Part shown: positions 9,417 to 49,509 of the stretch, piece after piece
How the letters are laid out: the number at the start of each line of letters is the position of its first letter
How positions within the stretch are numbered: position 1 is the stretch's first letter
NCBI GenBank assembly: GCA_014239155.1
Contig: JAAZZQ010000060.1
Span: 62,001-126,000 of the forward strand
Origin: Lachnospiraceae bacterium
GTDB lineage: Bacteria; Bacillota; Clostridia; Lachnospirales; Lachnospiraceae
Direction: 5' to 3'
Length of the DNA stretch: 64,000 nt
Translations under genes and position numbers: made by a program
The notes under the pieces: generated by a model
The model's input: only the letters and a program-made list of their open reading frames with translations
The model's database searches: none
What the model was told of the DNA's origin: nothing

Positions 9417-9445
9417 TTGACAAACTTTTTCAATGTAAGTATAAT
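9417..9445 (+). promoter_or_regulatory. Consensus sigma-A promoter of the opp operon
   Basis: TTGACA and TATAAT are separated by exactly 17 bases, a full consensus promoter. It lies about 320 bases before oppA, giving an unusually long leader. A second possible promoter (TTGACA at 9457) lies just downstream. Confidence 0.82.
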
Positions 9446-9766: not shown

Positions 9767-12031
9767 ATGAGAAACAGAAAACGAGTTCTTGCTGTTTTAC
9801 TAGCAGGAACGATGGTTGCCGGTTCTTTGGCAGGCTGTGGTTCTAACGGTGGTTCTGATAAACCAGCTACAGATACTCCTGTAGCAGAAAATAATAAAGA
9901 AACCGAACAGGCGGGCACAGAGACGGCAAATGCAGAGGAGACTACAACAGAGGAAGGAGAAGGGGGTTCTGCAAAGAGTATGGCGGAACTTGCGGAGATG
10001 GATTATGATGAGCGGTCCTCTTATCTGTACGAACAGAATCTTGGCGAGTTCTATGAGATTTATCAGGAGGCAAAAGCTGAGATCAATGACCTTTCTAAGC
10101 GGTATGCAATGATGGCGGTTGCAGAAGCAAAGCTTTTGGAAACGGGTGTCTTAAATCCGCAGACTGCGCAGGGTGGTACTTACTCCATATCAAGAAGAGT
10201 TCCAAACACAGAGACAACAGTGTTGTGGGGCAATGATGAATATAGATACCACAATGTGCTTGTGACAACAGAGCCAATAAAAGTGGCGGACAGAACAGAG
10301 ATGCGGCAGAAATGGGCAGAGTTGCGCGGCTCAGGAACTTATACTGAATGGGCAAAAACATATCTTGCAGAAAAAGGATATGAGCTGAAAGATTCCTATG
10401 CAGCGCACTGGTTTGGTTCTGACCCAACAACTTGGGATATTCTCTCCACAAGTCAGACTGTTGACAGTTATGCGACAGTAAATACATATGATGGTTTGCT
10501 AGAGTATGATTGTGAGAATGTTCAGCAGCCTGCTTTGGCGACAAGCTATGATGTGTCAGATGATGGATTGACTTATACATTCCACATTCGCGAGGGAGTT
10601 GACTGGGTTGACTCACAGGGCAGAAAAGTTGCAGATGTCAAGGCAGATGACTGGGTTGCAGGCTTTCAACATATGATTGATACAAACGGTGGGCTAGGCG
10701 ATTTGGTTGACGGCGTTGTCCTGAATGCCTCTGGATATATTTCTGGTGAGATTACAGACTTTTCACAGGTTGGTGTTAAGGCAGTTGATGATTATACATT
10801 GGAATACACATTGGAGGAAGCACTGCCATATTTCCCAACAATGCTTGGATATAATGTATTTGCGCCGCTCAGCAGAGATTACTACACATCGCAGGGTGGT
10901 AAATTTGGTGATGAATTTGACAGTTCAGCAGCAGATTATACCTATGGAAAGTCTCCGGACAATATTGCATACAATGGTCCGTTTTTGATTACAAACTTTA
11001 CTTCTAAGAATGTAATTGCGTTTAAGCAAAATGAGTCTTACTGGAATAAGGATAATATGACAATTAAGTCTATGTCATGGCCGTATGAGGATCAGTCTGA
11101 TGCGACGAAGATGTACAATGATGTAAAGAATGGCACTTTGGATCACACTGGTTTAAATACATCTGAGGTGGAATCTGCAAAGGCAGATGGATTGTTTGAT
11201 GAGTATGTATTTATCAGCGATACAAACGGTTCAACATTCCCGATGTATTATAACTTGTTCCGTACAGCATATGCAAACAGCAATGATGAGACAAAGGTGG
11301 TCTCTATCCTTACAGATGAGGAAAAAGATTTGGCAAACGCAGCTCTTGGCAATGCCAATTTCCGTCTGGCGTTGTCCTTCTCTATGGATAAGGCAGCAAG
11401 ACAGGCACAGCGTGTAGGCGAGGCTCTCAAATACGGTAGACTTAGAAACACCTATATACCAGGTAACTTTGTGACACTTGAGAATGAAGTGACCATCGAC
11501 ATCAATGGCACACCGACAAACTTTCCAGCAGGTACAGTTTATGGTGAGATTGTTCAGGCACAGATTGATGCGGATGGAATCCCTATCAAGGCATTTGATA
11601 AAACAGCAAGTGATGGCATAGGAAGCAGTGATGGTTATGATGGATGGTACAGTCCAGAAAATGCTGTTACATTTTTAAATAAAGCAATTGAGGAGTTGGC
11701 AGCACAGGGCGTTGTGATTGATGAGGAACATCCTGTTCGTTTGGAGCTTCCATACACATCTAGTATCGAGTGGGCAACAAACCAGGCAAATGCTGTAAAA
11801 CAGTCTGTTGAGGGCGCTTTTGGAGGCAAGGTGGAAATTATTCTTGCTGATGGAGCAGACAGCAATGAATGGTATTACACAGGATACTATACAGATTATG
11901 GATACGAGGCAAATTATAATATTACAGATGTATCTGGCTGGGGACCGGATTATGGTGATCCTGTTACTTACCTTGATACATTTTTACCTGATTACTCAGG
12001 CTATGTAACAAAGAGTCTTGGTATTTTCTAA
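9767..12031 (+). CDS. oppA: Oligopeptide ABC transporter substrate-binding lipoprotein
   Basis: The start lies behind AAGGAGG. The signal peptide ends in a lipobox (SLAGCG), so the protein is lipid-anchored outside the membrane, where it captures peptides for OppBCDF. After a Thr/Glu-rich linker comes a family 5 solute-binding domain with typical segments: NTYDGLLEYD, LATSYDVSDDGLTYTFHIR and SGWGPDYGDP. The protein stops about 18 residues after GPDYGDP, whereas classical OppA proteins continue for about 80-100 more residues. That may be normal for this lineage, or it may be a C-terminal truncation. It is the first gene of the opp operon. Confidence 0.88.
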   Translation: MRNRKRVLAVLLAGTMVAGSLAGCGSNGGSDKPATDTPVAENNKETEQAGTETANAEETTTEEGEGGSAKSMAELAEMDYDERSSYLYEQNLGEFYEIYQEAKAEINDLSKRYAMMAVAEAKLLETGVLNPQTAQGGTYSISRRVPNTETTVLWGNDEYRYHNVLVTTEPIKVADRTEMRQKWAELRGSGTYTEWAKTYLAEKGYELKDSYAAHWFGSDPTTWDILSTSQTVDSYATVNTYDGLLEYDCENVQQPALATSYDVSDDGLTYTFHIREGVDWVDSQGRKVADVKADDWVAGFQHMIDTNGGLGDLVDGVVLNASGYISGEITDFSQVGVKAVDDYTLEYTLEEALPYFPTMLGYNVFAPLSRDYYTSQGGKFGDEFDSSAADYTYGKSPDNIAYNGPFLITNFTSKNVIAFKQNESYWNKDNMTIKSMSWPYEDQSDATKMYNDVKNGTLDHTGLNTSEVESAKADGLFDEYVFISDTNGSTFPMYYNLFRTAYANSNDETKVVSILTDEEKDLANAALGNANFRLALSFSMDKAARQAQRVGEALKYGRLRNTYIPGNFVTLENEVTIDINGTPTNFPAGTVYGEIVQAQIDADGIPIKAFDKTASDGIGSSDGYDGWYSPENAVTFLNKAIEELAAQGVVIDEEHPVRLELPYTSSIEWATNQANAVKQSVEGAFGGKVEIILADGADSNEWYYTGYYTDYGYEANYNITDVSGWGPDYGDPVTYLDTFLPDYSGYVTKSLGIF

Positions 12032-12070: not shown

Positions 12071-12140
12071 TAGCAGATAAAAAGTGGATAGTTTGCGCTT
12101 GCGCCCAAACTCGCAGATGAAGCAAGAATGGGAGATGGAT

Positions 12141-13712
12141 ATGGCTAAGTATTTATTGAAACGTTTATTTCATGGATTGTTATCTGTGATAGCAGTCGTG
12201 ATATTGATTATGATTATGATCTATTCCCTGCTGGACCGCAATCTGATTTTTGCATCAGATCCAGTGTATACCAAGCAGCAGAATAACCAAAAGGTAACTT
12301 ATAAATATCAGAAATGGGAAGATTATGGTTATCTGGATTATGTAACCTACTCTGATTATTTGAATATCCTAACTTCGAGTGGAGAAATTGATGAGGAGAC
12401 CCGATCCGCCGCGGTTGGATTTGGAAGAACTCCTGAAAAAGATTCTGATCTTGTAAAAGAATATGTAGAAAAATTTACACAATATTATAAATCCCAAGGT
12501 TATACAGTTGAGCGATTGAACGCTGTATTAATGGGAAAAAAGAAAATTGCCAGCGGTGGGCAACAGCAACTTTTTGCTTATAAAAATATTCCATTAATAT
12601 CTCGTGTATGGAATTATTTTAGTGGAATATTGAGTATTGACAATATTAATAAAATTGAAAATGATGTGGGAGATCGTGGGATTTCCTTTACTTTATATGA
12701 TCCTGTCTATGGCGGGGAAACTTTTTCACCAGCGATTATTGGAAATGGTACTGTACATAAGTATTTGTTGTACTGTGATTCCAAATTTCCATTTATCCAT
12801 CAGAATATTATGAGTATTCAATTAGGAACTTCATATTCTGTCAATACGGGAGTTGACGTGTTTACAACAATGACAAAAACACAAGGGTCGTTTATCACAT
12901 CAACGATTACTTATCCAACAGGGTTGGTGGAGGAGAGTGCAGATGATTTGCATTCAGCTACATATCTGGCGGATTCTCTGCATTCTAGCCTTGTATATGA
13001 GACGCGATACACAGATGACTATACTATCGTGGGCACGGTAAAAGGTGGTTTGTCCAAGATGGGATACTCCTTCCTGATTGGTATTATCGCAACAGTTTTA
13101 GCATATGTGCTTGGCGTGCCGCTTGGAATTGCAATGGCAAGAAAGAAGGACAAGCTGATTGACAGAATTGGTACATTATATATTGTATTTATTATAGCAG
13201 TTCCTTCATTGGCTTATATTTTCTTGTTCAAGGCGATGGGTGGCAAGCTGGGATTCCCAACTACTTTTGATATGGATACAGCCAACAAACTTGTGTATGT
13301 GTTGCCAATTATTTCTCTTGCTTTGCCACAAGTTGCGAATCTAATGAAATGGTTGCGTCGCTATATGATTGACCAGATGAATTCCGACTATGTAAAATTT
13401 GCCAGAGCCGGAGGACTTTCAGAGAATGAAATTTTTACAAAACATATTTTGAAGAATGCGTCAATTCCAGTAATTCATGGAATACCGGGAAGCGTTTTAG
13501 GGTGTCTGACAGGTGCGATTATTACAGAGCGCGTATACGTCGTTCCAGGTGCAGGTAACTTGCTGACAGAGGCGATCAACAAATATGACAATGGTGTTAT
13601 TGTCGGTGTTTCCTTATTTTATGCAGTGCTGAGTGTTGTGGCGATTATTTTAGGTGATGTGTTGATGTCAATGGTAGATCCTAGAATTTCCTTCTCGAGC
13701 AAGGATCGATAA
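12141..13712 (+). CDS. oppB: Oligopeptide ABC transporter permease OppB
   Basis: The start is the ATG behind GGGAGATGGAT, giving MAKYLLKRLFHG, a typical OppB N-terminus. The first membrane segment spans about residues 10-30. A long external domain follows (about 30-300), far longer than in classical OppB (about 310 residues total). The other transmembrane helices lie in the C-terminal part. The EAA loop (KFARAGGLSENEIFTKHILKNASIP) that docks to the ATPases is intact. The large loop probably contacts OppA; that is inference. Confidence 0.9.
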   Translation: MAKYLLKRLFHGLLSVIAVVILIMIMIYSLLDRNLIFASDPVYTKQQNNQKVTYKYQKWEDYGYLDYVTYSDYLNILTSSGEIDEETRSAAVGFGRTPEKDSDLVKEYVEKFTQYYKSQGYTVERLNAVLMGKKKIASGGQQQLFAYKNIPLISRVWNYFSGILSIDNINKIENDVGDRGISFTLYDPVYGGETFSPAIIGNGTVHKYLLYCDSKFPFIHQNIMSIQLGTSYSVNTGVDVFTTMTKTQGSFITSTITYPTGLVEESADDLHSATYLADSLHSSLVYETRYTDDYTIVGTVKGGLSKMGYSFLIGIIATVLAYVLGVPLGIAMARKKDKLIDRIGTLYIVFIIAVPSLAYIFLFKAMGGKLGFPTTFDMDTANKLVYVLPIISLALPQVANLMKWLRRYMIDQMNSDYVKFARAGGLSENEIFTKHILKNASIPVIHGIPGSVLGCLTGAIITERVYVVPGAGNLLTEAINKYDNGVIVGVSLFYAVLSVVAIILGDVLMSMVDPRISFSSKDR

Positions 13713-13821: not shown

Positions 13822-14841
13822 ATGAATGTAGATTTTAAAATGGGTAAGTATGTCAACGTAGAAGTTACAGATTTGAAGGAAACAGACCCAACAGAAGGAA
13901 TGTCAGATGCGGAGCTGTTTACTGTGGTAAATCACAGTGACCTTGAATCAGAAAAAATTACAGCGCCGCGGTATTCGTACTGGCATTCTGTTTTTCGCGT
14001 GTTTTTCCGAAAAAAGATTAACATTGTAATGTTGGGATTGCTTGCAGTGATTGTATTGATGGCATATTTGTACCCAGTATTTGTAGAGTATGATCGCTAT
14101 GGAAATTTGTTGAATGCCTCCGCAAAACATTTGACGCCTACAGCTGCATTTAAACAGTTTGGTTACAATATTCACTGGGTTTTGGGAGCTGGCGCGGCTG
14201 GTCAGTCTACCTTTGATGCGATTTGGTATGGATCTCAGATTTCCATTTCGCTGGCGCTTATTGTTGCGTTGATTAATATGTCGGTTGGTGTTGTGATTGG
14301 TGCTATCTGGGGATTTTCTAAGAAGGTGGATAATGTTATGATGATTGTCTATAACATTATTGCAAATCTGCCTTATATTTTAGTGATTTCAGTAATGGTT
14401 ATGATATTTACTGCAGGCTTTTGGACAATGGTCTTTGCAATGACCGTGACTGGATGGTTGTCAATCGCATATTTTATACGTACACAAGTTATTATTATCC
14501 GTGATAGGGAGTATAATTTGGCATCAAGGTGTCTAGGGACTTCCACAATTCGGATTGCAATGAAAAATATTTTGCCGTTTATGACTTCTGTTGTTGTGAC
14601 ACTTGCAGCGACAGAGATACCTTCTTATATTTCTTATGAGGTGTTTCTTGCCTACATTGGCATGGGACTTAAGGAAATGTCCCTTGGTAGATTAATCTAT
14701 GAGGCTGAGAGTGCAATGTTGACACCTGGATGGGGGTTTGAGTTCTGGAGTCCGGTTGCGGTTGCTTCGATTATCACAATTGTTTTGTATGTGGTAGGAC
14801 AGAATCTTGGTGATGCGTCTGACCCTAGAACCCATATGTAG
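13822..14841 (+). CDS. oppC: Oligopeptide ABC transporter permease OppC
   Basis: This is the second channel subunit. It has an N-terminal cytoplasmic segment of about 60 residues, then the OppC-type first helix (VMLGLLAVIVLMAYLYP). The BPD_transp_1 domain contains an EAA-like loop (LASRCLGTSTIRIAMKNILP). The C-terminus GQNLGDASDPRTHM is typical of OppC. The start is an ATG behind AGAAAGG. It lies between oppB and oppD with gaps of 70-110 bases, consistent with one operon. Confidence 0.93.
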   Translation: MNVDFKMGKYVNVEVTDLKETDPTEGMSDAELFTVVNHSDLESEKITAPRYSYWHSVFRVFFRKKINIVMLGLLAVIVLMAYLYPVFVEYDRYGNLLNASAKHLTPTAAFKQFGYNIHWVLGAGAAGQSTFDAIWYGSQISISLALIVALINMSVGVVIGAIWGFSKKVDNVMMIVYNIIANLPYILVISVMVMIFTAGFWTMVFAMTVTGWLSIAYFIRTQVIIIRDREYNLASRCLGTSTIRIAMKNILPFMTSVVVTLAATEIPSYISYEVFLAYIGMGLKEMSLGRLIYEAESAMLTPGWGFEFWSPVAVASIITIVLYVVGQNLGDASDPRTHM

Positions 14842-14911: not shown

Positions 14912-16660
14912 ATGGAAGATAAAAAAGTTTTATTATCAATCAAGGATTTGGAAGTGAAATTTCGCGTGCGCGGAAAGCGACTGACTGCGATTCGCGGTGT
15001 TTCACTTGATATTTATGAAAATGAGTCAATAGCGATTGTTGGGGAGTCTGGTTCTGGTAAATCTGTATTTACAAAAACATTTGCGGGAATGCTTGACAGT
15101 AACGGATATATTGACAATGGAAGTATTATTTTTAATGATGAAGATTTAGCGGATACAGTTGTTCGCAAGACTTCTGTTTCAAAGAAGATGATTGATTATA
15201 CATTTGCAAAGTTGAATGCATATTCGCAGCTTGAACTAGGAGCAGAAATTTATAAAGAGATAGAGGCTTTGAAGACCGAGCGTGCTAAAAGGGCAAATAT
15301 CAGTTTGGAACAGAAAGAAAAGAGCGACAAAGCGATTGCTGAACTTGGCACAAAAAAGACAGAAGTCTTTAATTTGAAACAGACATTGGACCCTAAGACA
15401 GAAAGGGCGAAGATAAGAGAACTTACGCAATCTATAAAGCAGATGGAGAAGGAGATTAAAAAACTTCTAAAAGATAGAGTTGCAATGGAAAAAGCCGCAG
15501 AGAAACAGCTTAAGAGTGACACAGCCTATATCAATCAATACAATTCGGATATGGCTGCATTAAAAGCAAAGTATGATGCGGCAATCAAGGGAACGATTTC
15601 CAAGGAGACAAGGGAACGCAATGAAATTCTTGCAAAGGAAGTGTATCTCTCAATTGGAAGATATAGTTTTCATAAGCGTGTACAGATGTTATTTAAGTTT
15701 TTGGCAGCATTTCAGTCAGCAATGAAAATAGGAGCGGACTTGTCGGATGATGTGCACAGAAATGCAGTTTTTGACAAAGTGGCGTTTCGCGTGAAATATC
15801 TTGATGAGACAGCAAATCAGCTTCATGGAATCTGTGTGTTAAATTTGGCAAATGTAAAGTATGCAAAAGACTGGTATCAGATTCGCGGAAAGAAGATTGC
15901 AACGGTCTTTCAGGACCCAATGACTTCTCTAAATCCAATTATAACAATTGGAAAACAGATTACATCAATTATTATGAAGCATCAGGAAGTGACAGAGGTC
16001 GAGGCGCGGGCAAAGGCATTGGACCTTATGAAAAAGGTGGGAATCCCCAATGCGGAGGCACGTTTTGATGACTATCCGTTTCAATATTCCGGTGGTATGA
16101 GACAGCGAATTGTTATTGCAATTGCACTTTCTTGCCAGCCGAAGATATTGATTTGTGACGAGCCAACAACAGCGCTTGATGTGACAATTCAGGCGCAGAT
16201 TTTAAAGCTTCTAAAAGATTTGCAGAAAGAGTTTAATTATACGATTGTATTTATTACGCATGATCTTGGTGTTGTTGCGAATATAGCGGACCGTGTTGCG
16301 GTTGTGTATGCAGGTCAGATAATAGAGCTTGCCTCTGTGGATGAGATTTTCTATGATCCAAGGCATCCATATACATGGGCGTTGTTGTCGTCCATGCCGC
16401 AGCTTGCAGAGAAGAATACAAAGTTGTATTCTATCACAGGCACACCGCCATCTCTTTACAATAAAGTGGTGGGAGATGCATTTGCGCCGCGTAATCCATA
16501 CTGTATGAAGATTGATACGCTGAAGGAGCCGCCAATGTTTCAGGTTAGTGACACACACTTTGCAAAAACTTGGCTGCTGGACCCTCGTTCACCTCGGGTT
16601 GAGAAACCAGAAGCAATTCAGAATATTCATGAGAAACTTTTAAAAGCTTTTAATATATAG
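14912..16660 (+). CDS. oppD: Oligopeptide ABC transporter ATPase OppD with large insertion
   Basis: Walker A (GESGSGKS) lies at about 44-51, the Q-loop (VFQDPMTSLNP) near 334, the signature YSGGMRQR near 392 and Walker B ILICDEPTTALD near 412. The OppD C-terminal region includes HPYTWALLSSMP and a shortened cysteine motif. Family members are about 330 residues long; this one is 582. The extra 240 or so residues lie between the end of the Walker A subdomain (about 81) and the Q-loop strand (about 320). They are charged and helical, partly coiled-coil in character (ELTQSIKQMEKEIKKLLKD). All catalytic motifs are intact, so it should hydrolyse ATP. Confidence 0.93.
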   Translation: MEDKKVLLSIKDLEVKFRVRGKRLTAIRGVSLDIYENESIAIVGESGSGKSVFTKTFAGMLDSNGYIDNGSIIFNDEDLADTVVRKTSVSKKMIDYTFAKLNAYSQLELGAEIYKEIEALKTERAKRANISLEQKEKSDKAIAELGTKKTEVFNLKQTLDPKTERAKIRELTQSIKQMEKEIKKLLKDRVAMEKAAEKQLKSDTAYINQYNSDMAALKAKYDAAIKGTISKETRERNEILAKEVYLSIGRYSFHKRVQMLFKFLAAFQSAMKIGADLSDDVHRNAVFDKVAFRVKYLDETANQLHGICVLNLANVKYAKDWYQIRGKKIATVFQDPMTSLNPIITIGKQITSIIMKHQEVTEVEARAKALDLMKKVGIPNAEARFDDYPFQYSGGMRQRIVIAIALSCQPKILICDEPTTALDVTIQAQILKLLKDLQKEFNYTIVFITHDLGVVANIADRVAVVYAGQIIELASVDEIFYDPRHPYTWALLSSMPQLAEKNTKLYSITGTPPSLYNKVVGDAFAPRNPYCMKIDTLKEPPMFQVSDTHFAKTWLLDPRSPRVEKPEAIQNIHEKLLKAFNI

Positions 16661-16755: not shown

Positions 16756-18078
16756 GTGTCAAATCTGAATCAGAATAAATCAGGACGTGTATTTCATTTG
16801 CCGGAGCATGGTCCAATTGATGAAAAAAACGGCAAAGAGATATTATTATCAGTAAAGAATGTGGATATTACTTTTGGCAAAGGAGAAAACGCGGTCAAAG
16901 CTGTAAAAAATGCGAACTTTGATATTTATAAAGGAGAGACCTTCTCATTGGTAGGAGAGTCAGGCTCTGGAAAGACAACTGTAGGGAGAGCTGTGATTCG
17001 TGTCAATCCGTGTGCTGGAGGAGAAATTTTATATAAGGGTGTGCGCATTTCTGGGAAAATTCCGCGCTCTTTGGACAGAGAGGTTATCCGTAATATCCAG
17101 ATGGTTTTTCAGGACCCAGCGGCATCGCTCAATGAGCGTGCCACGGTGGATTATATTGTATCAGAAGGATTGTATAATTTTCATTTATATGAAAATGAGG
17201 CAGATCGTGTTCGCAAAGTCGAGAATATGATCAATGAGGTAGGACTGCTGCCAGAGCATTTGACCCGTTATCCACATGAGTTTTCGGGTGGGCAGCGCCA
17301 GCGAATTGGACTTGCCCGCGCTATGGTTATGGAGCCAGAACTTGTTGTGGCAGACGAACCAATCTCGGCATTGGATGTCTCAATCCGAGCGCAGGTGTTA
17401 AACCTGCTCAAAAAATTCCAGATAGAAAAAAATGTTACCTATTTGTTTATTGCACATGATCTCTCTATTGTGCGGTTTATTTCTGACCGAATTGGGGTAA
17501 TCTATAAGGGAAACATTGTGGAGATAGCAGAGGCGGATGAATTGTTTGAATTTCCATTGCATCCGTATACGCACTCTTTAATTTCTGCGATTCCAATTCC
17601 AGATCCGAAATTAGAGAAAAACAAAGTGCTCTATACGTATGATCCGTCAATGCATGATTACAGTACAGATCAGCCAGAACTTGTCAATATTGGACATGAT
17701 CACTTTGTCTATGGCAATAAGAAAGAAATTGAGGAATATAAGGCAATTCGCGCAAAGGGAGTACCTTTAAAATCCATTAATATTGTCGATCCAAGTGCGC
17801 CGCAAAAGCAGCAAAATTTACAGGAAACAAAGGCAGATACAATGTCTGCTCAGGAAGATGAATTTTTGAAAGCACCTGTGCACGATACAGGGAGCGTGTG
17901 GTATAAGATTCTTTCCTTTTTGCTTCCCGTGCTTGGATTGATAGCGGCTTTTGTGTTTAAGCATTTTCATTATTACCGTAATTATACGGCATGTAAGAAG
18001 GGCGCGATAGCTGGTTTGATCGTGATAGCGGCGATTATTGTACTGTTTATTTTGTTATTGATTTTAGTGGTGGTATAA
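16756..18078 (+). CDS. oppF: Oligopeptide ABC transporter ATPase OppF with C-terminal membrane hairpin
   Basis: The GTG start has GGAG about 9 bases upstream. Walker A is GESGSGKTT, the Q-loop is [11 protein letters not shown], the signature is [15 protein letters not shown] and Walker B is [12 protein letters not shown]. The OppF C-terminal region is recognisable up to about residue 340. Beyond that come about 30 linker residues and two hydrophobic helices ([17 protein letters not shown] and [19 protein letters not shown]). Such helices are not part of standard OppF and would tether this ATPase to the membrane. The next gene starts two bases after its stop. Confidence 0.93.
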
Positions 18079-18079
18079 C

Positions 18080-19351
18080 TTGAATCGTACAGTTAGGGAT
18101 AGATCTGATAGGTATCCAAAGCCTGTAAAACGGATTTCATTGTTAGAAAAGTATCCCAAAAGCAGGCTGATTATCGTAATTTTATTGATAGGAATTGGCA
18201 TTGGTGCGTTTGGATATTCGCTGGTAGCGTATCTTACGGTAGATGCTGGCTGGACAACAATTGAAGCTTCTACGTCGGAAGCAAGCTGTGCAGATGAATT
18301 GATATTTCAGTACAATCTCGGAGCAGGAGAACTGTCTGCCACGGCAGAACAGAAAGCGATTACTGCGTTGTATACAGAGGCTGTGATAAAGGCGTATCAG
18401 CTTTTTCATACAAGAATATCCTTTGATGGGGTGCATAACTTGTACTATATCAATCAGCATCCTAATGAGGAGATTGAGGTTGATTTGGTACTTTACAAGG
18501 CTTTTTCTCTAATGAATCAGTATAAAAATAGAGCGATATATTTGGCGCCAGTGTATATTCAGTATGACAATCTGTTTGGGTGTAATGATGACTTGGAGAC
18601 GGTGAATTTTGACCCACGGCAAAATCAAGAGATAGCCACCTATTTTTCAGAGATTCTTTCTTATACGAACGATTCAGATGCGATTGAACTAAAGCTTTTG
18701 GAAGGAAATAAAATAATGTTGTCTGTTTCGGAGGCGTATTTGAATTATGCGTCAGAAAATGGATTTTTGAATTTTATTGATTTTTACTGGATGAAAAACG
18801 CATTTATTGTTGACTATATTGCAGATGTTATGGTGGCAAATGGTTTTGTGCAGGGTTCCATCTCTAGCTATGATGGATTTATACGAAATTTGGATACTGT
18901 TGGTGATACAGAGTATGCTTTCAATATTTTGGACAAGGAAGATAACGCAATCTATCCGGCTGGGGTAATGAAATATAACAATGCGATTAGTATTGTGTCT
19001 TTGCGCAGCTATCCAGTGAATCGTCTTGACTGGCAGTATTATTATGAATTTCGTGATGGAACAGTTCAGACAGCATATATTGACCCATCAGACGGATATA
19101 GCAAAAATTCTGTTGACAGCCTTGTCTGTTATGCAAGAGACAGTAGTTGTACAGAGGTTTTATTGCGGGTGATGCCTGTTTTTATTGCCAACCATTTTGA
19201 TACAAAGCAACTAAATACGCTAGCGCAAAGTAAATTTTATTCTATTTATTGTGAGAACAGAACAATTTTTTACAATGATGCTGATTTACGACTGACAGAC
19301 CTATACAATAAAGATAAAGTGCGATATAGCGCAAAGCATAGAGAGGAATAA
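18080..19351 (+). CDS. Membrane-anchored ApbE-like protein, probably non-catalytic
   Basis: Translation starts at TTG almost touching oppF. One membrane helix lies at about residues 30-52; the rest should be extracytoplasmic. The order of segments resembles the ApbE (FAD:protein FMN transferase) fold: NLYYINQHPNEEIEVDLVLY, then FIVDYIADVMVANGFVQGSI where ApbE has its KGYAVD...G segment, then YIDPSDGYSKNSVDS where ApbE has H-I-x-DP-x-TG. The usual His before IDP, the GGN/GGD motif and the metal-binding Asp/Thr pattern are missing or altered. I therefore infer an ApbE-derived domain without flavin-transfer activity, perhaps a transporter accessory. The assignment is by eye. Confidence 0.5.
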   Translation: MNRTVRDRSDRYPKPVKRISLLEKYPKSRLIIVILLIGIGIGAFGYSLVAYLTVDAGWTTIEASTSEASCADELIFQYNLGAGELSATAEQKAITALYTEAVIKAYQLFHTRISFDGVHNLYYINQHPNEEIEVDLVLYKAFSLMNQYKNRAIYLAPVYIQYDNLFGCNDDLETVNFDPRQNQEIATYFSEILSYTNDSDAIELKLLEGNKIMLSVSEAYLNYASENGFLNFIDFYWMKNAFIVDYIADVMVANGFVQGSISSYDGFIRNLDTVGDTEYAFNILDKEDNAIYPAGVMKYNNAISIVSLRSYPVNRLDWQYYYEFRDGTVQTAYIDPSDGYSKNSVDSLVCYARDSSCTEVLLRVMPVFIANHFDTKQLNTLAQSKFYSIYCENRTIFYNDADLRLTDLYNKDKVRYSAKHREE

Positions 19352-19373: not shown

Positions 19374-19886
19374 ATGAAGAAGATTGTAAGGGGAATTTAT
19401 GAATGGTCAAAGATGCTTTTGTTCGCGCTGGCGGTTGCTTTTTGGCTAAAAAATAATGTTGTTGCAAGCGCGTTGGTGCCAACAGGCTCAATGGAAGGAG
19501 CTGTTATGACAGGGAGCAGGATTGTGATTAATCGCCTGGCATATTTATATGACAGCCCGCAAAGAGGAGATATTGTGTCCTTTTACTATCCTGATGACGG
19601 AGAGACGTTGTATCTAAAACGGATTATTGGTTTGCCGGGAGAAGTAATTGAGGGAATTGACAGTAAGATATACATTGATGGTAAAGAAATATCAGATTAT
19701 ACAGGAAACAGATTTTATGAGGATTTTGGACCTTACAGAATACCAGAAGGCTGTTATTTTATGATGGGAGACAACCGCAATAATTCTTGGGATTCAAGAT
19801 TTTGGGAGAATAAATTTGTGAATTTAGAGGAAATTGTTGGCAAAGCCACATTTGAATATTATCCAGAAATAAAAGTGTTAAAATAA
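19374..19886 (+). CDS. lepB: Signal peptidase I
   Basis: The enzyme cleaves signal peptides of exported proteins at the outer face of the membrane. It has one N-terminal helix (about 13-33). The catalytic Ser is near 39 in VPTGSMEG, the catalytic Lys near 82 in LYLKRIIGLPGE, and the box E motif is GDNRNNSWDSR. The 170-residue length fits the Gram-positive SipS type. It is the last gene of the opp transcript, 22 bases after the ApbE-like gene, and a terminator follows. The surface-protein island downstream would be natural clientele. Confidence 0.94.
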   Translation: MKKIVRGIYEWSKMLLFALAVAFWLKNNVVASALVPTGSMEGAVMTGSRIVINRLAYLYDSPQRGDIVSFYYPDDGETLYLKRIIGLPGEVIEGIDSKIYIDGKEISDYTGNRFYEDFGPYRIPEGCYFMMGDNRNNSWDSRFWENKFVNLEEIVGKATFEYYPEIKVLK

Positions 19887-19890
19887 GGGA

Positions 19891-19916
19891 ATCGGCTGCT
19901 TTTGCGGTCGATTTTT
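19891..19916 (+). terminator. Intrinsic terminator after lepB
   Basis: ATCGGCTGC-tttt-GCGGTCGAT forms a 9-bp stem with G-U pairs, followed by five T residues. It lies 4 bases after the stop codon and closes the opp operon. Confidence 0.7.
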
Positions 19917-20762: not shown

Positions 20763-21122
20763 ATGGAAAATTTCAAATTATGTGACAGTGATTATCGTTT
20801 TATGTTGGTAGTTTGGGAATTTGCGCCAATTAATTCTGGAGAGTTAGTGCAGTTGTGTAATCAAAAGCTTGGTTGGAAGAAGTCTACCACATACACACAG
20901 ATTAAAAAAATGTGTGATAAAGGGTATATTGAAAATGTACAGGCTACAGTTCGAGTGCTGATTTCTAAGGAAAAAGTACAAGCTAAGGAGAGTGCCTATT
21001 TTGTGGAACGTACATTTGACGGTTCGCTTCCAGAATTTCTAACGGCATTTCTTGGAGGAAAAACAATATCTGAACAGGAAGCGGAGAGGATTAAGAGAAT
21101 GATTGATGAACATATTGAGTGA
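20763..21122 (+). CDS. blaI: BlaI/MecI-type winged-helix repressor
   Basis: The protein binds paired dyads as a dimer and is inactivated when its BlaR1 partner signals. The winged-helix segment (about 7-75; STTYTQIKKMCDKGYI) and the C-terminal dimerisation helices match the Penicillinase_R family in order and length (119 residues). The start is an ATG behind GGGGGG. blaR1 follows at once, and the twin operator upstream supports autoregulation. Confidence 0.93.
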   Translation: MENFKLCDSDYRFMLVVWEFAPINSGELVQLCNQKLGWKKSTTYTQIKKMCDKGYIENVQATVRVLISKEKVQAKESAYFVERTFDGSLPEFLTAFLGGKTISEQEAERIKRMIDEHIE

Positions 21123-21136
21123 TTGGAGATGAGGTT

Positions 21137-23227
21137 ATGCAGATAATAAATGCATTGTTTTTAAAAATTGTGGAACAAAGTCTAAATGCGGGAATTGTTA
21201 TTTTCATTGTTCTTGCCGTAAGAGTTTTACTAAAAAGATTTCCAAAAAGTTTTGCATATTTCCTTTGGCTTGTGGTAGCTTTTCGGCTGATAATACCAAG
21301 CTCTATTGATTCGGGGATTAGTGTGTATAATTTGTTTAACAGTGAAAAAATGGAATTAAAAAATATTAATTTAGAAAAAGTTTCCAATACAAGCAATACT
21401 GCTGCGACAGCTCAGACAGTAGTTGAAAGACCACAGAAAATTACAGAGGAAACTACAATAGACAATACAGAAAGTATTGCTTACCAAGAATATGAAACAG
21501 ATAAAAATATCTATATGGCAGATATTTTTCATGCAGAAAAAAAGACAACAAATTTTAAGAATAATAAATGGATCAATATTTTGGCATGTTTTTGGTTGTC
21601 TGGAATGTTGGGACTGATTTGTTATACAATTGTTGCACTCCGAAAAATTAAAAGAAAGATTCAATTTGGAATAAGGCAGTATGGTTGCGTTTATGAATGT
21701 GATAGTATTCGGTCTCCATTTGTATTTGGGATTCTCTCTCCAAAAATTTATTTGCCATTTCGGTTAAGTAAAGTCGAACAGCAGTGTATTTTGGCGCATG
21801 AGGAGTATCATATTAAAAGAAAAGATTATCTAATAAAAAGAGTTGCTTGGTTATTGGTGGTAGTCTATTGGTTTCAACCGTTGGTGTGGGTGGCATACCA
21901 TTTGATGTGTCTTGATATGGAAATGAGCTGTGACGAGAAAATTATTGCAGGATTTGATATAGAGTTGCGCAAGGAGTATAGCAGATTAATGCTAGCATTC
22001 GCAGTAAATAAAAGAAAGTTTTCGGCTAGTTCTTTGGCATTTGGGGAGGGAAATACAATGAAGCGAATACAAAATATATTGGAATATCAAAAAACTGTAC
22101 GCTGGAAATTGGCAGTTGGCACAGTTGTAGTAATGTTAACGTTGGCTGCATGTGCAACAGATGCAAAATCAGTGTTATCTGATACAAATAAGACCATTCT
22201 TTCAGAGAGTGAAACCATGCAGCAGACGATACTATTGGATAATAATACTTTGAATTTTTCTGCGGAATTAGACAAAGCAAATGATTCCACACAGAATATT
22301 GCAGATTCGGAACATATTATAGCACATCAAGAAGCGCAATGGGCAGAAAATACAATGTTTGATTTGGAATTTTGTTCTCTGGATTATGTAGATTCGGATA
22401 GAATTTTATTTCATATTTCAAGTGGATTTTTTGTATATGATTTGGAAAAACAACGCATTGTACACAGCGTAGACTTAAAAGCACTGCATTGTCAAGCAGT
22501 GCAGACGGGAAAAGCTTGTGATGTCACAGTATACCAAAATGGTACTGGACAACTAAAGGCAGTGATTACACCATATCCATATTCCGTTGATACTGGTTAT
22601 GTCTATGATGTTGAGAACGACAAATTGTTTGCATATAATACAGCGTTATTGGAGGATTATGTGCCGTTTGACCGTTTTGTCTCAAAATATGATATACCAT
22701 TTGAAGACGGGGTGACAAAAACATGGAAAATGGCAACGAATGTCTTACCATTAGGAGAACATTCTTATGGAATGATTTGTTGGGATACCATAGAACTTGC
22801 CACAGTGTATTACAAAGAGGGGGAGCAGAAATATCAACTTTTTCATAAAGAACAGGCAACCTTGCCAAAGCATTTAAAACAAGATGACAGTTTCTATCAG
22901 TCAATTGCGCAAAATTCTGGAACAAGCGTAAGCCAGTGTTTGTTAGATTATATAGGGCTTTATAATATGCATGATTACGCTGGTATCTGTGCACTTTCCA
23001 CAGGAGTGGTATACTCTGACCAAAAGCAGCAGGAATTTGCAGAGAATACGAAAAAGTTATCTCTTGATAAGGAGGTGCACCATTCTGAAGATGAGAAGGA
23101 GTATGTATTTCAATTTTCTTACAGTGATGATTATGAGGAGGGAGAGATAAAAGTTTATTTGGCATTTAAAGATGTAGATGGACAGGGCTGGCGTGCAGAA
23201 GGACTTCCAAGTAAAAGTGATGAATAA
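21137..23227 (+). CDS. BlaR1-type sensor metalloprotease lacking a penicillin-binding domain
   Basis: I use the ATG behind GGAGATGAGG, just after the blaI stop; the ORF track's GTG overlaps blaI. Membrane helices lie near 17-33, 38-53 and 150-175, and a further one follows the protease site. The M56 zinc protease motif is HEEYH near residue 221, with the downstream EMSCDEKI segment. After a helix ending LTLAACA (about 325-340) comes an extracytoplasmic region of about 350 residues. It lacks STxK and KTG motifs, so it is not the usual beta-lactam sensor. Residues 420-560 look beta-rich and the last 110 or so form a separate small domain. The ligand is unknown, and no beta-lactamase gene is adjacent. 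Confidence 0.85.
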   Translation: MQIINALFLKIVEQSLNAGIVIFIVLAVRVLLKRFPKSFAYFLWLVVAFRLIIPSSIDSGISVYNLFNSEKMELKNINLEKVSNTSNTAATAQTVVERPQKITEETTIDNTESIAYQEYETDKNIYMADIFHAEKKTTNFKNNKWINILACFWLSGMLGLICYTIVALRKIKRKIQFGIRQYGCVYECDSIRSPFVFGILSPKIYLPFRLSKVEQQCILAHEEYHIKRKDYLIKRVAWLLVVVYWFQPLVWVAYHLMCLDMEMSCDEKIIAGFDIELRKEYSRLMLAFAVNKRKFSASSLAFGEGNTMKRIQNILEYQKTVRWKLAVGTVVVMLTLAACATDAKSVLSDTNKTILSESETMQQTILLDNNTLNFSAELDKANDSTQNIADSEHIIAHQEAQWAENTMFDLEFCSLDYVDSDRILFHISSGFFVYDLEKQRIVHSVDLKALHCQAVQTGKACDVTVYQNGTGQLKAVITPYPYSVDTGYVYDVENDKLFAYNTALLEDYVPFDRFVSKYDIPFEDGVTKTWKMATNVLPLGEHSYGMICWDTIELATVYYKEGEQKYQLFHKEQATLPKHLKQDDSFYQSIAQNSGTSVSQCLLDYIGLYNMHDYAGICALSTGVVYSDQKQQEFAENTKKLSLDKEVHHSEDEKEYVFQFSYSDDYEEGEIKVYLAFKDVDGQGWRAEGLPSKSDE

Positions 23228-36465: not shown

Positions 36466-38610
36466 ATGTATCGGAGATTAAAAAATATTTTAGGGGTAAG
36501 TCTAATGATTTTGGCAGTTGTTATTTCTCAGGTTCCTATGCCAGATGCACAGGCGGAAGTGACACAGAAGATGTCAGAGACACAGACTGTAGAGGAAACG
36601 TTATTGGAAACAGCAACAGATTTGGCAGAAAATGCATCTGAGATATTGACGGGACTAGAGGAAAACGCAAAAACAATGTCAGCAGAAGCGGAAGAAAACT
36701 CAACAGCACCATCAGCAGAAGCGGAGGAAAGCCCAGCAGCACCATCAACAGAGCCAGAAGAAAGCTCAGTAGTACCGTCAACAGAACCAGAAGAAAGCTC
36801 AGTAGTACCGTCAACAGAACCAGAAGAAAGTTCAGTAGTACCATCAACAGAACCAGAGGAAAGTTCAGTAATACCATCAACAGAACCGGAGGAAAGTTCA
36901 GTAATATCATCATCAGAGATTGTAATTGATCCAGATCAGAAATATACAGTAACGTTTGTTACCGGAATTTTGGGGGTAAATGGTGAGAAAAGGGAGGTTC
37001 TTCACGGTCGAACAGTGTCTGAACTTGTGTCGGTAAATGGCAATCAGTCACAGATTTTGAGAAAAGGAATTTATCAGGTTGAGCAAGATGATGGAAAACA
37101 GGAGATTGTATATACATTTGCAGGTTGGTATCGGGATAATAACTATACTGCTGAATGGGATTTTGCCAACGATACTATCGAGCAGGATACAACAATCTAT
37201 GCAAAGTGGGATAGACAGACAAAAGCATATTTTTATGTGATCTATCGTGCAGCGGAAGGCAGTGAAAATGCTACTAATATACCAGAAAAACAAAAGTTGT
37301 ATGCAGACGATAAGTTAAAGAAGCCGACAAAGAAGCCCTCTTTAAAAAATAAAAATTTTAAAGGGTGGTATACAAACCCCTCAGATGCGAAATCGGAGTT
37401 TAAAGCATGGGGAAAGCCTCTGACAAAAGATATAACGCTTTATGCCCTTTTTGTAGAAAAGAGCAATACAGTGGTCTTCCATATGAATGGTGGTGGATTT
37501 ACAGGTAAATATAATGGAAAGTCCTACACAGATACAGCGAGCCTGACTGCAAAAATTACAACGGGAGAAAAAATTTCTTCCACAGATTATCCGGGAAGCG
37601 GTTCTACATCTAATTTTAAGTATTCTAACTTTTCAACGGATTCAAATTGGTATAAGGATAAGGAATGTCTTCAGGTATACGAACAAGATGCTAAGGTGAA
37701 GGGAGATCTTACATTATATAAGAAATGGTATTATACGTCATCTGGATTTACCATGAATGCAACAGGAGCTGTGTTGTACAAATACAGCGCATCTGTGGCA
37801 GATGTCAAAATACCAGATTCTGTTAAAATAATTGGAAATGATGCATTTACAAGCATGGGCAGCATTGCAAGTATTACATTGCCGGATAACATCTCCGAGG
37901 TTCAGGAAAATGCTTTTCGAGGAGTGAAGAATGTCTCAAAAGATATTACAATTACTGGAAAAACTGAAAGTGCCAAAAACATTGCAAAGAGATTGGCTAA
38001 TCAGTATACACGTTTTGTTTATAAGGAAAGCGATACAGATGACAGTGTCGTTGTAAGCCGGACGGCTTCTGGAAGTATTCAGCTTGGCGCGACAATTTCT
38101 GGCAGTAATCCAACTACACAGAATAACACAAAAAACAACACAACGACAGTAACATCGCCAACATCCACTATGCCATCAATATCTGCGCCGCGGTCAGAAG
38201 TAACAGTACCTTCGACGCAGATATCGCAGCCAGAAGTGACAATACCGCCAACATCTATACCACAACCGGGAGTGACAACACAACCAACATCATCAACGTC
38301 TGTACCACAGCCAATGTCTACAACACAGTCATCATCAGGACCGCAGTCTGTGAGAAGCAATATAACATCGTCCTCGCAGCAGAGTACTTCTGATTCTTTT
38401 GTATCTGCGGACCAAAGTGTGGGGACGACACAAAAAACAAAGATTGCGGCTGCAAACGCACCAAAAAGCACAGCGCATATCAAAGATTCCACGCCGAAGA
38501 CAGGAGACCCAGTACAGTATCGTATGCTTATTGTATGTGCAATGTTTTCAGTGGGAGCATTGCTTGTTCTTACCGGGAACGGAAGAAGGAAGAAATCTTC
38601 TGCATTTTAG
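36466..38610 (+). CDS. Sortase-anchored surface protein with InlB-type and LRR_5 modules
   Basis: A signal peptide spans about residues 1-30. Seven 11-residue Glu/Ser/Pro units (TEPEESSVVPS type, about 73-149) form a stalk. Two InlB B-repeat/Flg_new-like modules follow (about 155-250 and 255-330; FAGWYRDNN..DTTIYAKW and FKGWYTNP..DITLYALF). An unassigned beta-rich part comes next, then one short BspA-type LRR block (about 435-490) and a Pro/Thr/Ser-rich wall spacer. The C-terminus is a sorting signal: TPKTGD near 676, a hydrophobic helix and GRRKK. It directly follows sortase 1. A role in adhesion or polymer binding is inferred from the modules. Confidence 0.9.
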   Translation: MYRRLKNILGVSLMILAVVISQVPMPDAQAEVTQKMSETQTVEETLLETATDLAENASEILTGLEENAKTMSAEAEENSTAPSAEAEESPAAPSTEPEESSVVPSTEPEESSVVPSTEPEESSVVPSTEPEESSVIPSTEPEESSVISSSEIVIDPDQKYTVTFVTGILGVNGEKREVLHGRTVSELVSVNGNQSQILRKGIYQVEQDDGKQEIVYTFAGWYRDNNYTAEWDFANDTIEQDTTIYAKWDRQTKAYFYVIYRAAEGSENATNIPEKQKLYADDKLKKPTKKPSLKNKNFKGWYTNPSDAKSEFKAWGKPLTKDITLYALFVEKSNTVVFHMNGGGFTGKYNGKSYTDTASLTAKITTGEKISSTDYPGSGSTSNFKYSNFSTDSNWYKDKECLQVYEQDAKVKGDLTLYKKWYYTSSGFTMNATGAVLYKYSASVADVKIPDSVKIIGNDAFTSMGSIASITLPDNISEVQENAFRGVKNVSKDITITGKTESAKNIAKRLANQYTRFVYKESDTDDSVVVSRTASGSIQLGATISGSNPTTQNNTKNNTTTVTSPTSTMPSISAPRSEVTVPSTQISQPEVTIPPTSIPQPGVTTQPTSSTSVPQPMSTTQSSSGPQSVRSNITSSSQQSTSDSFVSADQSVGTTQKTKIAAANAPKSTAHIKDSTPKTGDPVQYRMLIVCAMFSVGALLVLTGNGRRKKSSAF
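36682..36912 (+). repeat. In-frame 33-bp tandem repeats in surface protein
   Basis: Seven 33-base units encode the 11-mer S-T/A-E-P/A-E-E-S-x-V-x-P. The central ones are nearly identical in DNA sequence, so copy number is probably variable between strains. Confidence 0.88.
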
Positions 38611-40674: not shown

Positions 40675-40770
40675 GTAAATAATGTACTTCTATTATAAAT
40701 AAGTGTAAGGGTGTTTGGCATAAAGTGGAGTATTTGTGCAAAGCACCAAAGGATAAGGGGGATTTCAAAT

Positions 40771-43700
40771 ATGAGGTCAACTAAGATTGGACGAAAGATA
40801 TTGGCAGGTGTATTGTGTGCTGTTATGGTATTTCAGTGTGTGCCTGCAGAGGCAGTGGCAAGTGAAGTCGCAGAGACAGTACAATCCTATGAGCATGAGC
40901 AGTCGGACACAATAGAATCTCAGAAAGAAAATCAGGAAACAAACAGTTTAGATTCATTAGAATCAGAAGACGCACAGGTGATATCAGAGACAGATATAGA
41001 GGAAACATCAGAAGTGACCGAAAAGTCAGATGTGCTAGAATCATCAGAATTATTTGAGGATATAAATGCTGCTGATACATCACCGACACAGAAGGAAGAG
41101 AGCACGACTGAAGAAACGTTGTTTACAACTGAGGAGATGAGCACAACAGAAGTATCGTCGGCTGCCGAGGAGTCCAGCGTGATAGAAACTTTGCCGACAG
41201 CGGAAGAATCAGAAGTGGCAGAGACATCAGAACTGTCGGAAATGCCAGACACAGAAGAGACTGTTGAGCTAGAGACAGACATGACAGAAACAGGAACGAC
41301 TGATATAGAGGAGGAGACGGCGGAACAGGCGGTGACAGCGCTTGCAGATGAATTGCCGGATTATAAAAAATTACTTTCTGTTGTCTCAGAAAAAAAATAC
41401 TATTATTATGAAAAAGCAAAAGATATTTTTGTAAAATTAGAAGGGTGTGAAATACCAGATACAATAAATATTGAGTTTTATATTGACGAAGAGGATAACA
41501 ATAAAGGACAAAAAGTCAATGGTGAAAAAGATGGAGATTATTATAGAATTTCCTTACAAGGAATGGATGTTTTGACAGGGACACATACATTGACGGTTAA
41601 ATTAATAGATCCGACGGCACCAGACGCTATTTCTGAATTGGTAAGCAGAAAACTTGAGTTTACAATAGAAGAAGCAAATGTATTTACGGAAGCAGAAAAA
41701 TATTTTATTTCTGCAACGGATGACACAATTGAAGTAGCACTTTTTAATCCAGATGATAATATTACATCCGTTCAGATTACTGCACCAAATGGTGATATTG
41801 TTGCACGCTCCAACCAGAAAAGCCCAGCTGTACCTCAAAGAGAAGATCCTCGTTATACAGGCATTGGAAATGGGTATGAGTATAAAGAAGATATTTTATA
41901 TAAAACAACGTGGATTCTTCCTACAGAGAAAAATGCGCTTGAAGTTGGCAACTATGATGTTCGATTGACACTTGATAGCGGTTCGGATATGCTTCTTGGC
42001 AATGTTGTGGAGGTCTCTTCAAAGGCAGTTGTTACAAAGTGTACACTGGGTATGGATTACGATAATACAAGTAATTTTGTGTATTTGTATATTCAGGGAA
42101 CAGGTTTTAATCCTTCCCAGGTACGTTTTGATTTTGAGGACGAGGCGACATCAGCCATTTTATCTACCACAAGAATTGATTATAAAACTGTGCAGTCTGG
42201 ATTTATTGTGAAGTTCCGAAAGGAAGGAAATTGGGAGAAGGCAGGAAATAAAATTAAGGTAACGATCTCTAAAAAGTCTGGAAATATTAATTTTACGCAA
42301 ACTGAGTTTGAGGCGTTGCTAGAGAGTGGTATCTACTATGCAGAGTATAGTAATGTATTGAATGCTGTGGAAGTTGGTGTTACAACAGACTTAAATGGAA
42401 AAGCGGTAAAGTTTAGTATTGTTAATGAAAAAGGTGATAATCCTTCATTTGAATCAGATGTTACAACAAGATCGTTGACAGAAAGCTTGGTCTATCTTAC
42501 ACCTAATAAGGCTTTAGACAGGGGGCGTTATTATGTGAAGTTAAAGGAAACAGGAGGAAATACATATTATAAAGAATTTACTGTGAGTCAGGCAACAGCA
42601 GTCAAAAGCCATTGGGATGCGCCTGCGGTAATCTCAAAGAATGCAGAAAGACATGATTTTTATTACTTTGATACAGAAGCTGGAATCAGCAATGATACAT
42701 TGAAGGCATCAATAGATGGATATAGTGGAGAAGTAGCAGTCTACGCAAGTGAGTGGCAGCGAGAGGATGATGTAAAGGGTACACGTATTCAGCTATGGAT
42801 TCCTACACAAAAGTTGGAATTTGGTTCTCATACAGTAAGAATTACTAGAGATGGCAACGCGTATACATCTCACACATTTGAGGTGATTGCATCTGATTAT
42901 AAAAAATTTGTTCTTGACACCTATGCGCTTTCTTGGATTGATGATAAGACCATACAGGTTTATATAAAGACACCAAACTGCGCAGAGACAGATGATTTTA
43001 ATGTTAAATTGACAGAAGTTGACGGTGGAGAAGTGACAGGCATCAGTGCAGTAGTAACAGAGAGATACACGGATAGCGTTTTTATGAATATTACTGGATT
43101 GGACAGAAGTAAGGCGTTTAAAGATTACAATGTGCTGATAACACATAAAGAATTAGATCAACCATATAAAATGTCCAATTTAAACGAAAAGTATTATACG
43201 GATGAGGTCAATGGTGATAAGACATCTATTTCTTCTAATAAAGGTTTGCCTGTATTGGCAAACAATCGGGTAATTGGTATTAATATTCAGAATCTGGCAC
43301 TGCCTGCAACCTTGACAATCTATGCGACAGAAAATACAGAGGTAATTGATAGGATTACCATTCCCTCTACAACAGAGGGTAATTATTATTATTTTACCAA
43401 AGAATTTTATGACAGTCTGGAAAAGAAAGATCGATTGTATGATATGACTGTCACAGATTTTGGTGAGAATTGGGGAAGATCTTATGCAAGAATCAATCTT
43501 GGTTACAAAGAAGAAGAAACAATAAATGACTTTGATTTACAGATTATTAGTGATACATTGTATGTTGATGGCGCAGAGAGCGGAAAATCAACTGTTATTA
43601 TTGTATCAGGCAATCAGCAGAAACCAGTGTTTGAAGTTTCGGATGATGAGGTCGTGGAGTTGGAGGAATATATAGAGACTTCCGAGGAAACTGGAACACA

Positions 43701-46700
43701 GACAACAGATCCGAACAAGAGACGAGTGATTGCCAAAAATACAGGAACAACATTTATTACAGTTATTGCGGATGGCGTGAAAAAGAGTGTATTTGTCACA
43801 GTTACAAGAAATACATCTGGCATTACGATCAATACTTCAGATCGACATATGAGGGTTGGGGATTCTTTTGAGGCAGAGGCATTTATTCAACCATCAAGCG
43901 CAGAGGACCCGACACAAATTGTAAACTTTATATCATCAGATAACAATGTGTTGTATGTGAAGAAATTAACAAATAGGACGGCAAGAGTTACGGCATTGAA
44001 GTCTGGAACAGCAGTGCTGCGAGCTACATTGGAAGGAACTCCCTATACTGTAGCAGTGACAATCTCTATTACAAATTCTTTTCCTTTATATGATAAAAAA
44101 GAAATTAAGATTAAAGAAGTAGGGACTGTCAGCTACATTGAGAATGTTGATCGAGCATTGTCTTACTGCAAGTTACCCAAAGGATGGGAGTGGAACAATG
44201 ATGATCTTATCTTAACGGCAAGTGACGAGCTGCAATATTGCTGGGCAACCTATACAGAAGAGGGGTATCAGCCATTTTCTGCAAGACTGCCAGTGGCAGC
44301 TACGCGTATTGTCGGTATTGATGTAACGGGCAAAAAGCTGATTAATCAAGGACAGAAGGAAACCTATCAGATTACCTATCAGTATATAGGAGCAGATATT
44401 AATACTCCTAAGTTCCGGGAACGGCTCACTACGAATTGTGTCAGAACATCAGAGGGAAATATTGCAGCAGTAGAATCTTTAGAGTGGAATGAGCTTGTGA
44501 TTGCTGCAATGGAAAAAACTAGCGGTGGAACGGCAGATTTCTCACTGACATTAGCAATTGATCAAGGAACAAGTCAGGAACTTGATTTGTTTGTAAAAGA
44601 TTTTAGTGTTGATGTTCCTCTGACAGATTGCGTAAACAATGTAAAAGTGAAGCCTATAAAGATAGGCAACCAGAACTTTACATATACAGAAGCAGAAGAT
44701 CGAATGGAAGTTGATCAAAAAGATGTTCGAGATGCAAAGAATAAATATGCGATTAAGCTTCAGGCAGAGGCAACGATTAATGGAAAGCCAGCACCAAATA
44801 TGAAATTTGACTGGGAATCAAACGATACGACTGTGGCAACTGTTGCAATAAATGAGAGTAATGAAGTGATTCTCACTGTGAAAAAGGAGGGCAGTGTAGA
44901 AATTACGGCGAAGGCGAAGGATCAGGGAGAGTGCACAGGCACATTGACAGTGAATATTATGGATTATGCACCAATCCTTGAAGTATCAAGTATAACTATT
45001 AACAAGTATTATACTCAAGGAACAGAATTTGCTTTACAGCAACAGAATGGAAATAAAATTACTTCTGTAAATGTGTTGGAAAAGGATGGAGAGGAAGACA
45101 GAAACTCATCAAACTTTTCTGTAAGTGCACCGACAGAAGGGATTTCTACTTTAAATATAAAGCCAAATGCACCAGTATTATCCGCTTCAAGAAAAACTGT
45201 TTCAAAGTGCAAGCTAGAAGTTATTACAGAAAAAGGAAAATATCCATATTCGTTGAATGTGACCACCGATGTTACCAAGCCTTCTGTAACATTAAAATTA
45301 AAAACAAAGGCCAATCTGTTTTATAAGGATGCAGAAGCTGTTTATACAATTTCTAGCAAATATAATATTCAGTCTATAGAAATTCCAGAAGCAAATGGTA
45401 TTGGCTTTGATGGAAGTTATCATCGCAGTAATAACACGATAACTTTTCGAGCAAAAGGGCTTGATAGTAATACATTAGGTCAATTTTCTCCAAAGTCACC
45501 AAATGTGAAGGTACAGTTAAATATTGCCTTTGCAGGCTATACCTATAAGCAGCCGATAGAACTTAATATTGCAACCGAGAATAAAAAACCATCATTAAGT
45601 TTGACGGGAATGGTGATTTGCCCGGGGATTTCATCAGGTGTGGTTAATGTAATTAATTCAAAGACAAAGGAGCAGGTTCTGTTAGATAATGCAATGACAT
45701 TTGCAGTTACAAAACCACTTAATAGTGGTATTAGTACAACGATTAACAGGAATGGCAGCATTGCTGTAAAGTATCTTGGTACTAAAAATGTATCTTATAC
45801 TACAGAACTAAAAAGTTCTAATTGGACACAGCCAGTTAATGCAAAGGGAAAAATTACCTATGTAACATCTCCCGATAAGTTGTCATTGTCGCTTGGGAGT
45901 AAACAATTGACATTGAATATGGCTACAAACATCAAGGCAAATGGTACAAATACAATTCCCATTTCTGTAAACGGAAGTGATATTGGAATAACAAAGCTAA
46001 CTTATGGAGGCTCAGCGGCAAAACTGATTGATATAGATGAATATCTTGTGTGTGATTATCGGCCTACAAGCCAGGGAATTAAGAGTATTAGTCTGGGATT
46101 GAAGGAGGGGAAGCGCGGAACGGTCAAGGCGGGAACTTACAAGCTGGATTTGTATGCAACTGTAAATCTATTAAATCAGGAGATTACAATTAAGAAAGCA
46201 ACATTGACAATCAAGCTTACAGAGGCAGATAAAGCAAAGGTAACACTTGCATCACCCAAGGGAAAGATCAACCTAATAGACAGGGAAAATACATCTGTGG
46301 TGTATACACCAAAGGTTTCTGGAATTGATTCTGCTATAAGAAGTGTGAGCGTAGTAGGAGATAATGCGGAGTATTTTTCCGCTTCTCTAAATGCTGACAA
46401 GAAAGTGGAAGTGAAGATTAAGACTGGAAAGGGCATGTCCTCTAAGCAATCATATTCTGTTCAAATTCAGTCTGTGTTACAGAATGACTACAAGATTTTG
46501 TCCTCAGTGAAAATCAAACCTGTCAACACACTGCCAAAGATTGTATTTACTCCTGCAAAATGTAATTTGTATCGAAGTAATTCGAACAAGTATACAACTT
46601 CTATATCACTGAAAAACAACAGTATCGATATAGATAATATTACAGGGATTAAGATTGACCCAAGCAATAAAAATAATGCGAACAACTTTTTGTTGGTCAA

Positions 46701-49425: not shown

Positions 49426-49509
49426 AAGATTGGAGGCATAAATTGTATGTATAGATAGATGATATTGTCAATAAAAGGGAGTATAAATAACAAAGTGGGG
49501 AGAAACAAT

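Follow-up and report, generated by a model that had tools for sequence, protein, structure and literature searches.

A probable ApbE-derived pseudo-enzyme encoded in an Ami-type oligopeptide importer operon of Lachnospiraceae

The flavin transferases ApbE, Ftp, and FmnB (PF02424; PDB entries 4IFW, 7F2U, and 1VRM) have an active site whose residues carry assigned roles. In FmnB, Asp184 contacts the adenosine ribose, Lys190 and Asn216 contact the phosphates and the metal, Ser257, Arg262, and His273 act in catalysis, and Asp301, Ser304, and Thr305 belong to the metal site (PMC8906456); in the V. cholerae enzyme, His257 is the proposed general base (PMC12052999). A second set of described systems, the Ami-type peptide importers, combines a binding protein such as AmiA or AliB with AmiCDEF. 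Our literature search, which left most subscription journals outside its reach, returned no paper on a connection between ApbE and Opp operons or on an inactive branch of ApbE, and the main text of a survey of flavinylation (PMC8238504) mentions neither “ABC transporter” nor “inactive.”

The locus described here lies in a 64-kb stretch of DNA, referred to below as the window. Its protein of interest resembles ApbE, Ftp, and FmnB in having what appears to be the whole ApbE fold in the order of its segments, in being predicted to be extracytoplasmic, and in keeping the ribose-contact Asp and an acid at the main metal position. Unlike those enzymes, it lacks the catalytic His, the Lys of the AKG motif, the GGN loop, and the metal-site Ser and Thr, it falls below Pfam detection, and it is encoded in a peptide importer operon. 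That operon follows the Ami plan, with the gene order A-B-C-D-F, an OppA nearest AmiA/AliB, and extra N-terminal residues on OppB, but adds a sixth gene, the ApbE-like one. It also resembles the Mycoplasma-type Opp system, in that the best NCBIfam matches for its OppB, OppC, OppF, and OppA are MMSYN1_0165, 0166, 0168, and 0169, all under the curated cutoffs.

The importer operon and its sixth gene

All operon features given here are on the + strand. The first gene (9767 to 12031) encodes OppA, an Ami-type oligopeptide-binding protein of 754 amino acids with an SBP_bac_5 domain, whose best solved relatives are AmiA (E = 2.6e-68), AliC, AliB, and AliD; about 200 residues precede the part that matches AmiA/AliB. 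The two permeases follow. OppB (12084 to 13712; 542 amino acids) carries about 280 extra residues N-terminal to its conserved BPD_transp_1 domain (residues 344 to 536) and has full-length matches among other OppBs of the same type, and OppC (13822 to 14841; 339 amino acids) has BPD_transp_1 and OppC_N domains. Of the two ATPases, both with ABC_tran and oligo_HPY domains, OppD (14912 to 16660; 582 amino acids) has its ABC_tran domain in two stretches, interrupted by a long, charged, probably helical insertion, and OppF (16756 to 18078; 440 amino acids) bears a C-terminal extension of about 110 residues that ends in two hydrophobic helices, which is unusual for an ABC ATPase. The OppF extension is missing from two other loci (L064 and L072) and from a distant operon (L101, genome G990), which also lacks the OppD insertion. 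With A, B, C, D, and F in order and an AmiA-like binding protein, the window operon has the makeup of an Ami-type importer.

The ApbE-like gene (18080 to 19351; 423 amino acids) starts one base past the oppF stop codon, with TTG at the position where the family alignment has ATG in most other species. Directly 3' of it lies a gene for a type I signal peptidase (19374 to 19886; Peptidase_S26), the last before a terminator-like hairpin (19887 to 19916) recognized by pattern match only. As a promoter-like site of the sigma-70 type (TTGACA-17-TATAAT; 9417 to 9445), defined only by its 12 of 12 consensus matches, precedes oppA and the hairpin follows the signal peptidase gene, a single transcript of these seven genes is plausible from the sequence. 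Elsewhere in the window, at 20763 to 23227, a gene whose product was judged by eye to be a BlaI-like regulator overlaps the 5' end of one for a BlaR1-type M56 peptidase with an extra C-terminal region, and this pair is found in several near relatives. Large surface-type proteins are encoded at 36466 to 38610, 40711 to 46857, and 49459 to 55146; they include BspA-type leucine-rich repeats with Listeria-Bacteroides or InlB B-type repeats and a 2,048-amino-acid protein with a Big_2 domain.

The earlier note had placed the gene within an opp operon, and a survey of gene neighborhoods agrees: in all 25 loci read, the ApbE-like gene lies directly after oppF on the same strand. These loci span at least ten genera and include one record from outside Lachnospiraceae, and no second copy away from the operon came up in the genome searches. 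Among 348 sampled genomes of the bacterial family, 14 have an OppB that matches across the extra region, and the ApbE-like gene is present in 11 of the 14; the other three have a complete oppABCDF, and a second species of one gene-lacking genus is likewise without it. Within the genus, the gene was found in 17 of 38 genomes, many of the latter being incomplete. Since three of 14 operons of this transporter type lack the gene, the importer can do without the protein, which would therefore be accessory. Two closer associations were considered and rejected. Strict coevolution with the OppF hairpin fails in both directions, as the hairpin occurs in three operons that lack the ApbE-like gene and is missing from two that carry a divergent form of it, and the signal peptidase is no core partner, its gene being linked in near relatives only.

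ApbE fold and loss of active-site residues

Neither Pfam nor NCBIfam gave a credible match for the window protein, PF02424 included, and the protein is hence probably annotated as hypothetical. In the two most divergent orthologues PF02424 is the best Pfam match, at 12.8 to 14.3 bits, below the gathering cutoff of 25.6 bits. Taken alone, searches of the PDB were too weak both with the single sequence, which matched only the Thermotoga ApbE (1vrm; E = 0.028), and with a profile (E = 0.089). The AlphaFold2 model of the window protein has a mean pLDDT of 89.5, and when Foldseek was run with it against the PDB, all 33 matches at an E value of ≤0.001 were ApbE/Ftp/FmnB flavin transferases (best, 1.9e-12; TM-scores by target length, 0.61 to 0.77), after which the E value leaps to 0.46; the predicted fold is thus that of ApbE (double T-fold). 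The model of one of the most divergent orthologues, built on the family alignment and so not fully independent of the first, likewise matches ApbEs only. At the profile level, hhalign aligned 18 relatives with 17 canonical ApbEs over nearly the whole domain (probability, 94; E = 1.5e-7), and a search of the class with the family profile returned canonical ApbEs as its weaker matches outside the family, 17 of the 18 loci there having been read as proteins.

These comparisons of profiles and predicted structures point to common descent with the canonical ApbEs, and thus to membership in the ApbE superfamily; chance resemblance is ruled out by the fold search and the profile comparisons, and a spurious open reading frame is ruled out by conservation in many genera. 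The earlier note had judged that the order of segments fits an ApbE fold, and that judgment is borne out: the model is an ApbE fold rather than an unrelated one, hhalign and Foldseek lead to the same enzymes, and the profile retrieves canonical ApbEs.

We compared active-site residues between 24 opp-linked family proteins and 28 canonical ApbEs, matching FmnB numbering to the ApbE of the same genome by motif. All 28 canonical proteins share the Lys, GG, His, Asp, Ser, and Thr, and a single one has Asp in place of the GGN Asn. In the window protein (codons all on the + strand), D234 (18779 to 18781), the Asp of the IDLG motif and counterpart of FmnB Asp184, is kept, as in 23 of the 24 family members. 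N240 (18797 to 18799) takes the place of the lysine in AKG (FmnB Lys190), where 23 members have Asn and none has Lys. D265-G266-F267 (18872 to 18880) replaces the GGN loop (FmnB Asn216), which reads mostly DG(F/Y) in the family. The catalytic His, the second of HHIIDP (FmnB His273 and V. cholerae His257), aligns with A332 (19073 to 19075); Ala, Pro, or Ser occupies this position in most members, and His occurs in none of the 24, versus all 28 canonical ApbEs. At the main metal position (FmnB Asp301) there is E359 (19154 to 19156), with Glu in 16 members and Asp in five, while L362-R363 (19163 to 19168) aligns with the metal-site Ser304-Thr305; the D-x-x-S-T pattern is found in no member, most members having Leu or Met for the Ser and mostly Gln or Arg being found for the Thr. 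The region of Ser257 and Arg262 aligns poorly and was left out of this evidence of residue loss. The replacement residues are themselves conserved (Y78, 24/24; N240, 23/24; A241, 24/24; D265, 20/24).

Given this systematic loss of catalytic residues, flavin-transferase activity of the window protein is very unlikely, and a loss of the transferase chemistry in the family is strongly supported at the level of sequence. The dead ApbE-like enzyme of the earlier note is in keeping with this pattern, which confirms that the His before IDP and the GGN/GGD loop are missing; the Lys can be added to these. Its statement that the metal ligands are missing holds for the Ser and Thr, lost in all 24 members, but not for the main metal Asp, which is conservatively replaced (21 of 24 members have Glu or Asp). 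With this acid retained, the protein may still bind a metal, a nucleotide, or some other ligand. The genome itself encodes a canonical ApbE on another contig, which carries a lipobox-like sequence, whereas the window protein has a membrane helix. Weak ApbE-profile matches in C61 of the same genome lie in a PTS permease-like protein, as judged by eye. The flavinylation motif D-x-x-[ST]-G-A-[ST] was found in none of the six frames of the window.

Selection and alternative explanations

The 24 family proteins form one clade (support, 100/99) in a tree with long branches, in which the finer branching order is unsure; the opp-linked ApbE branch arose once. Against relatives where it was computable, the dN/dS of the ApbE-like gene is 0.13 to 0.22, versus 0.02 to 0.08 for oppB, oppC, oppD, and oppF, values that are rough because dS is near saturation; the family evolves under purifying selection. 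The gene is thus the fastest or joint fastest evolving of the operon, a rate compatible with weak constraint and with adaptation alike. This elevated rate, with the absence of the gene from some operons, is what might be expected of a decaying apbE copy on its way to loss, but the frame is intact in nearly all copies, dN/dS is well below 1, and the new residues are strongly conserved in a deep single clade; such long-term conservation of lineage-specific residues already disfavors decay, which we regard as highly improbable. Columns of the former pocket are also conserved above the domain average (3.21 versus 2.70 bits; permutation P = 0.007), although the contrast is far stronger in canonical ApbEs (3.99 versus 2.36 bits), and this conservation fits either a remodeled pocket or a retained structural core. 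The conserved replacements, the pocket columns, and the dN/dS range together favor a new function over decay. The same rapid evolution and patchy presence, along with the signal peptidase gene that also rides along in near relatives, could instead mark a surface protein that travels in the operon as a passenger and plays no part in peptide transport. We consider this unlikely, given the invariant position after oppF across so many genera and the lack of an unlinked copy.

Two other explanations would leave the pocket in use. A flavin transferase or hydrolase that stays active with a rearranged active site could be imagined from the ApbE fold and the one retained metal-site acid, yet the catalytic His, the Lys, and the metal-site Ser and Thr are absent, the window holds no flavinylation motif, and the canonical ApbE of the genome is at hand; the sequence makes such an enzyme hardly credible. 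Alternatively, a nucleotide or flavin might still be bound without transfer, with the protein sensing flavins or nucleotides outside the cell and thereby gating the importer. The conserved ribose-contact D234, the acid at E359, and the above-average conservation of the pocket columns speak for such a sensor. Against it, the equivalents of Lys190, Asn216, His273, Ser304, and Thr305, which include the phosphate and metal contacts of FmnB (PMC8906456), are lost, and the change from GGN to DGF introduces an acid and an aromatic ring close to the expected phosphate site, so that judging from these residues the sensor seems improbable, if less so than an active enzyme.

Topology and a possible role in peptide import

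The N terminus of the window protein is predicted to be a cytoplasmic tail (18080 to 18154) with the conserved motif PKPVxxIxLSEK and a net positive charge (eight K/R versus three D/E). It is followed by a single membrane helix without a lipobox (18155 to 18235; residues 26 to 52 by the model and by hydrophobicity) and by the ApbE-fold domain (18236 to 19348), predicted to be extracytoplasmic from the AlphaFold2 model and Foldseek; all three lie on the + strand. From the positively charged tail and the one membrane helix, we infer by the positive-inside rule that the domain faces outward. Further, the conservation of KPVxxIxLSEK suggests that the tail makes a contact at the membrane or beneath it. 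The nearest records are from Lachnospiraceae; the more distant ones include a single record of an Acutalibacter isolate. Lachnospiraceae have no outer membrane. Hence, the “outer membrane face” of the earlier note must be taken as the outward side of the cytoplasmic membrane.

We favor, as the reasonably probable explanation, an ApbE-derived pseudo-enzyme that is anchored in the membrane, lies outside it, and serves as an accessory subunit of an Ami-type importer. Its ancestor would have been an extracytoplasmic FAD:protein FMN transferase of the ApbE/Ftp/FmnB type that lost FMN transfer. One uncleaved N-terminal helix would hold the protein in the cytoplasmic membrane, with the short tail inside and the ApbE-fold domain outside, and the protein would be made together with the oppABCDF importer. 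It would most likely dock on the permease or on the peptide-binding protein and tune peptide delivery; alternatively, it might report on a ligand held in the remodeled former FAD pocket. Topology, cotranscription, contact with the importer, and lack of activity are inferred, the last of these strongly, from the sequence; an accessory or ligand-sensing role is deduced from gene context and linkage, and what the pseudo-enzyme would sense or stabilize is a guess. The structural or sensing role proposed in the earlier note is compatible with the same gene context. A more speculative version, which we put forward tentatively and with some doubt, is that in this dedicated subunit the former FAD pocket now accommodates another ligand, such as a metal ion or the end of a peptide, and sends a signal by way of the helix and tail to the ATPases, making the protein an allosteric sensor of a kind not known in other Opp systems.

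Thus, an old enzyme was apparently put to new use as an accessory component of a peptide importer. Its family would be a branch of the ApbE superfamily in which inactivation is consistent, and Ami-type importers of gut Lachnospiraceae would have gained a component. If the protein is a real subunit, the way in which a major family of gut bacteria regulates peptide uptake would become testable, and an ApbE fold by itself would be no proof of extracytoplasmic flavinylation.
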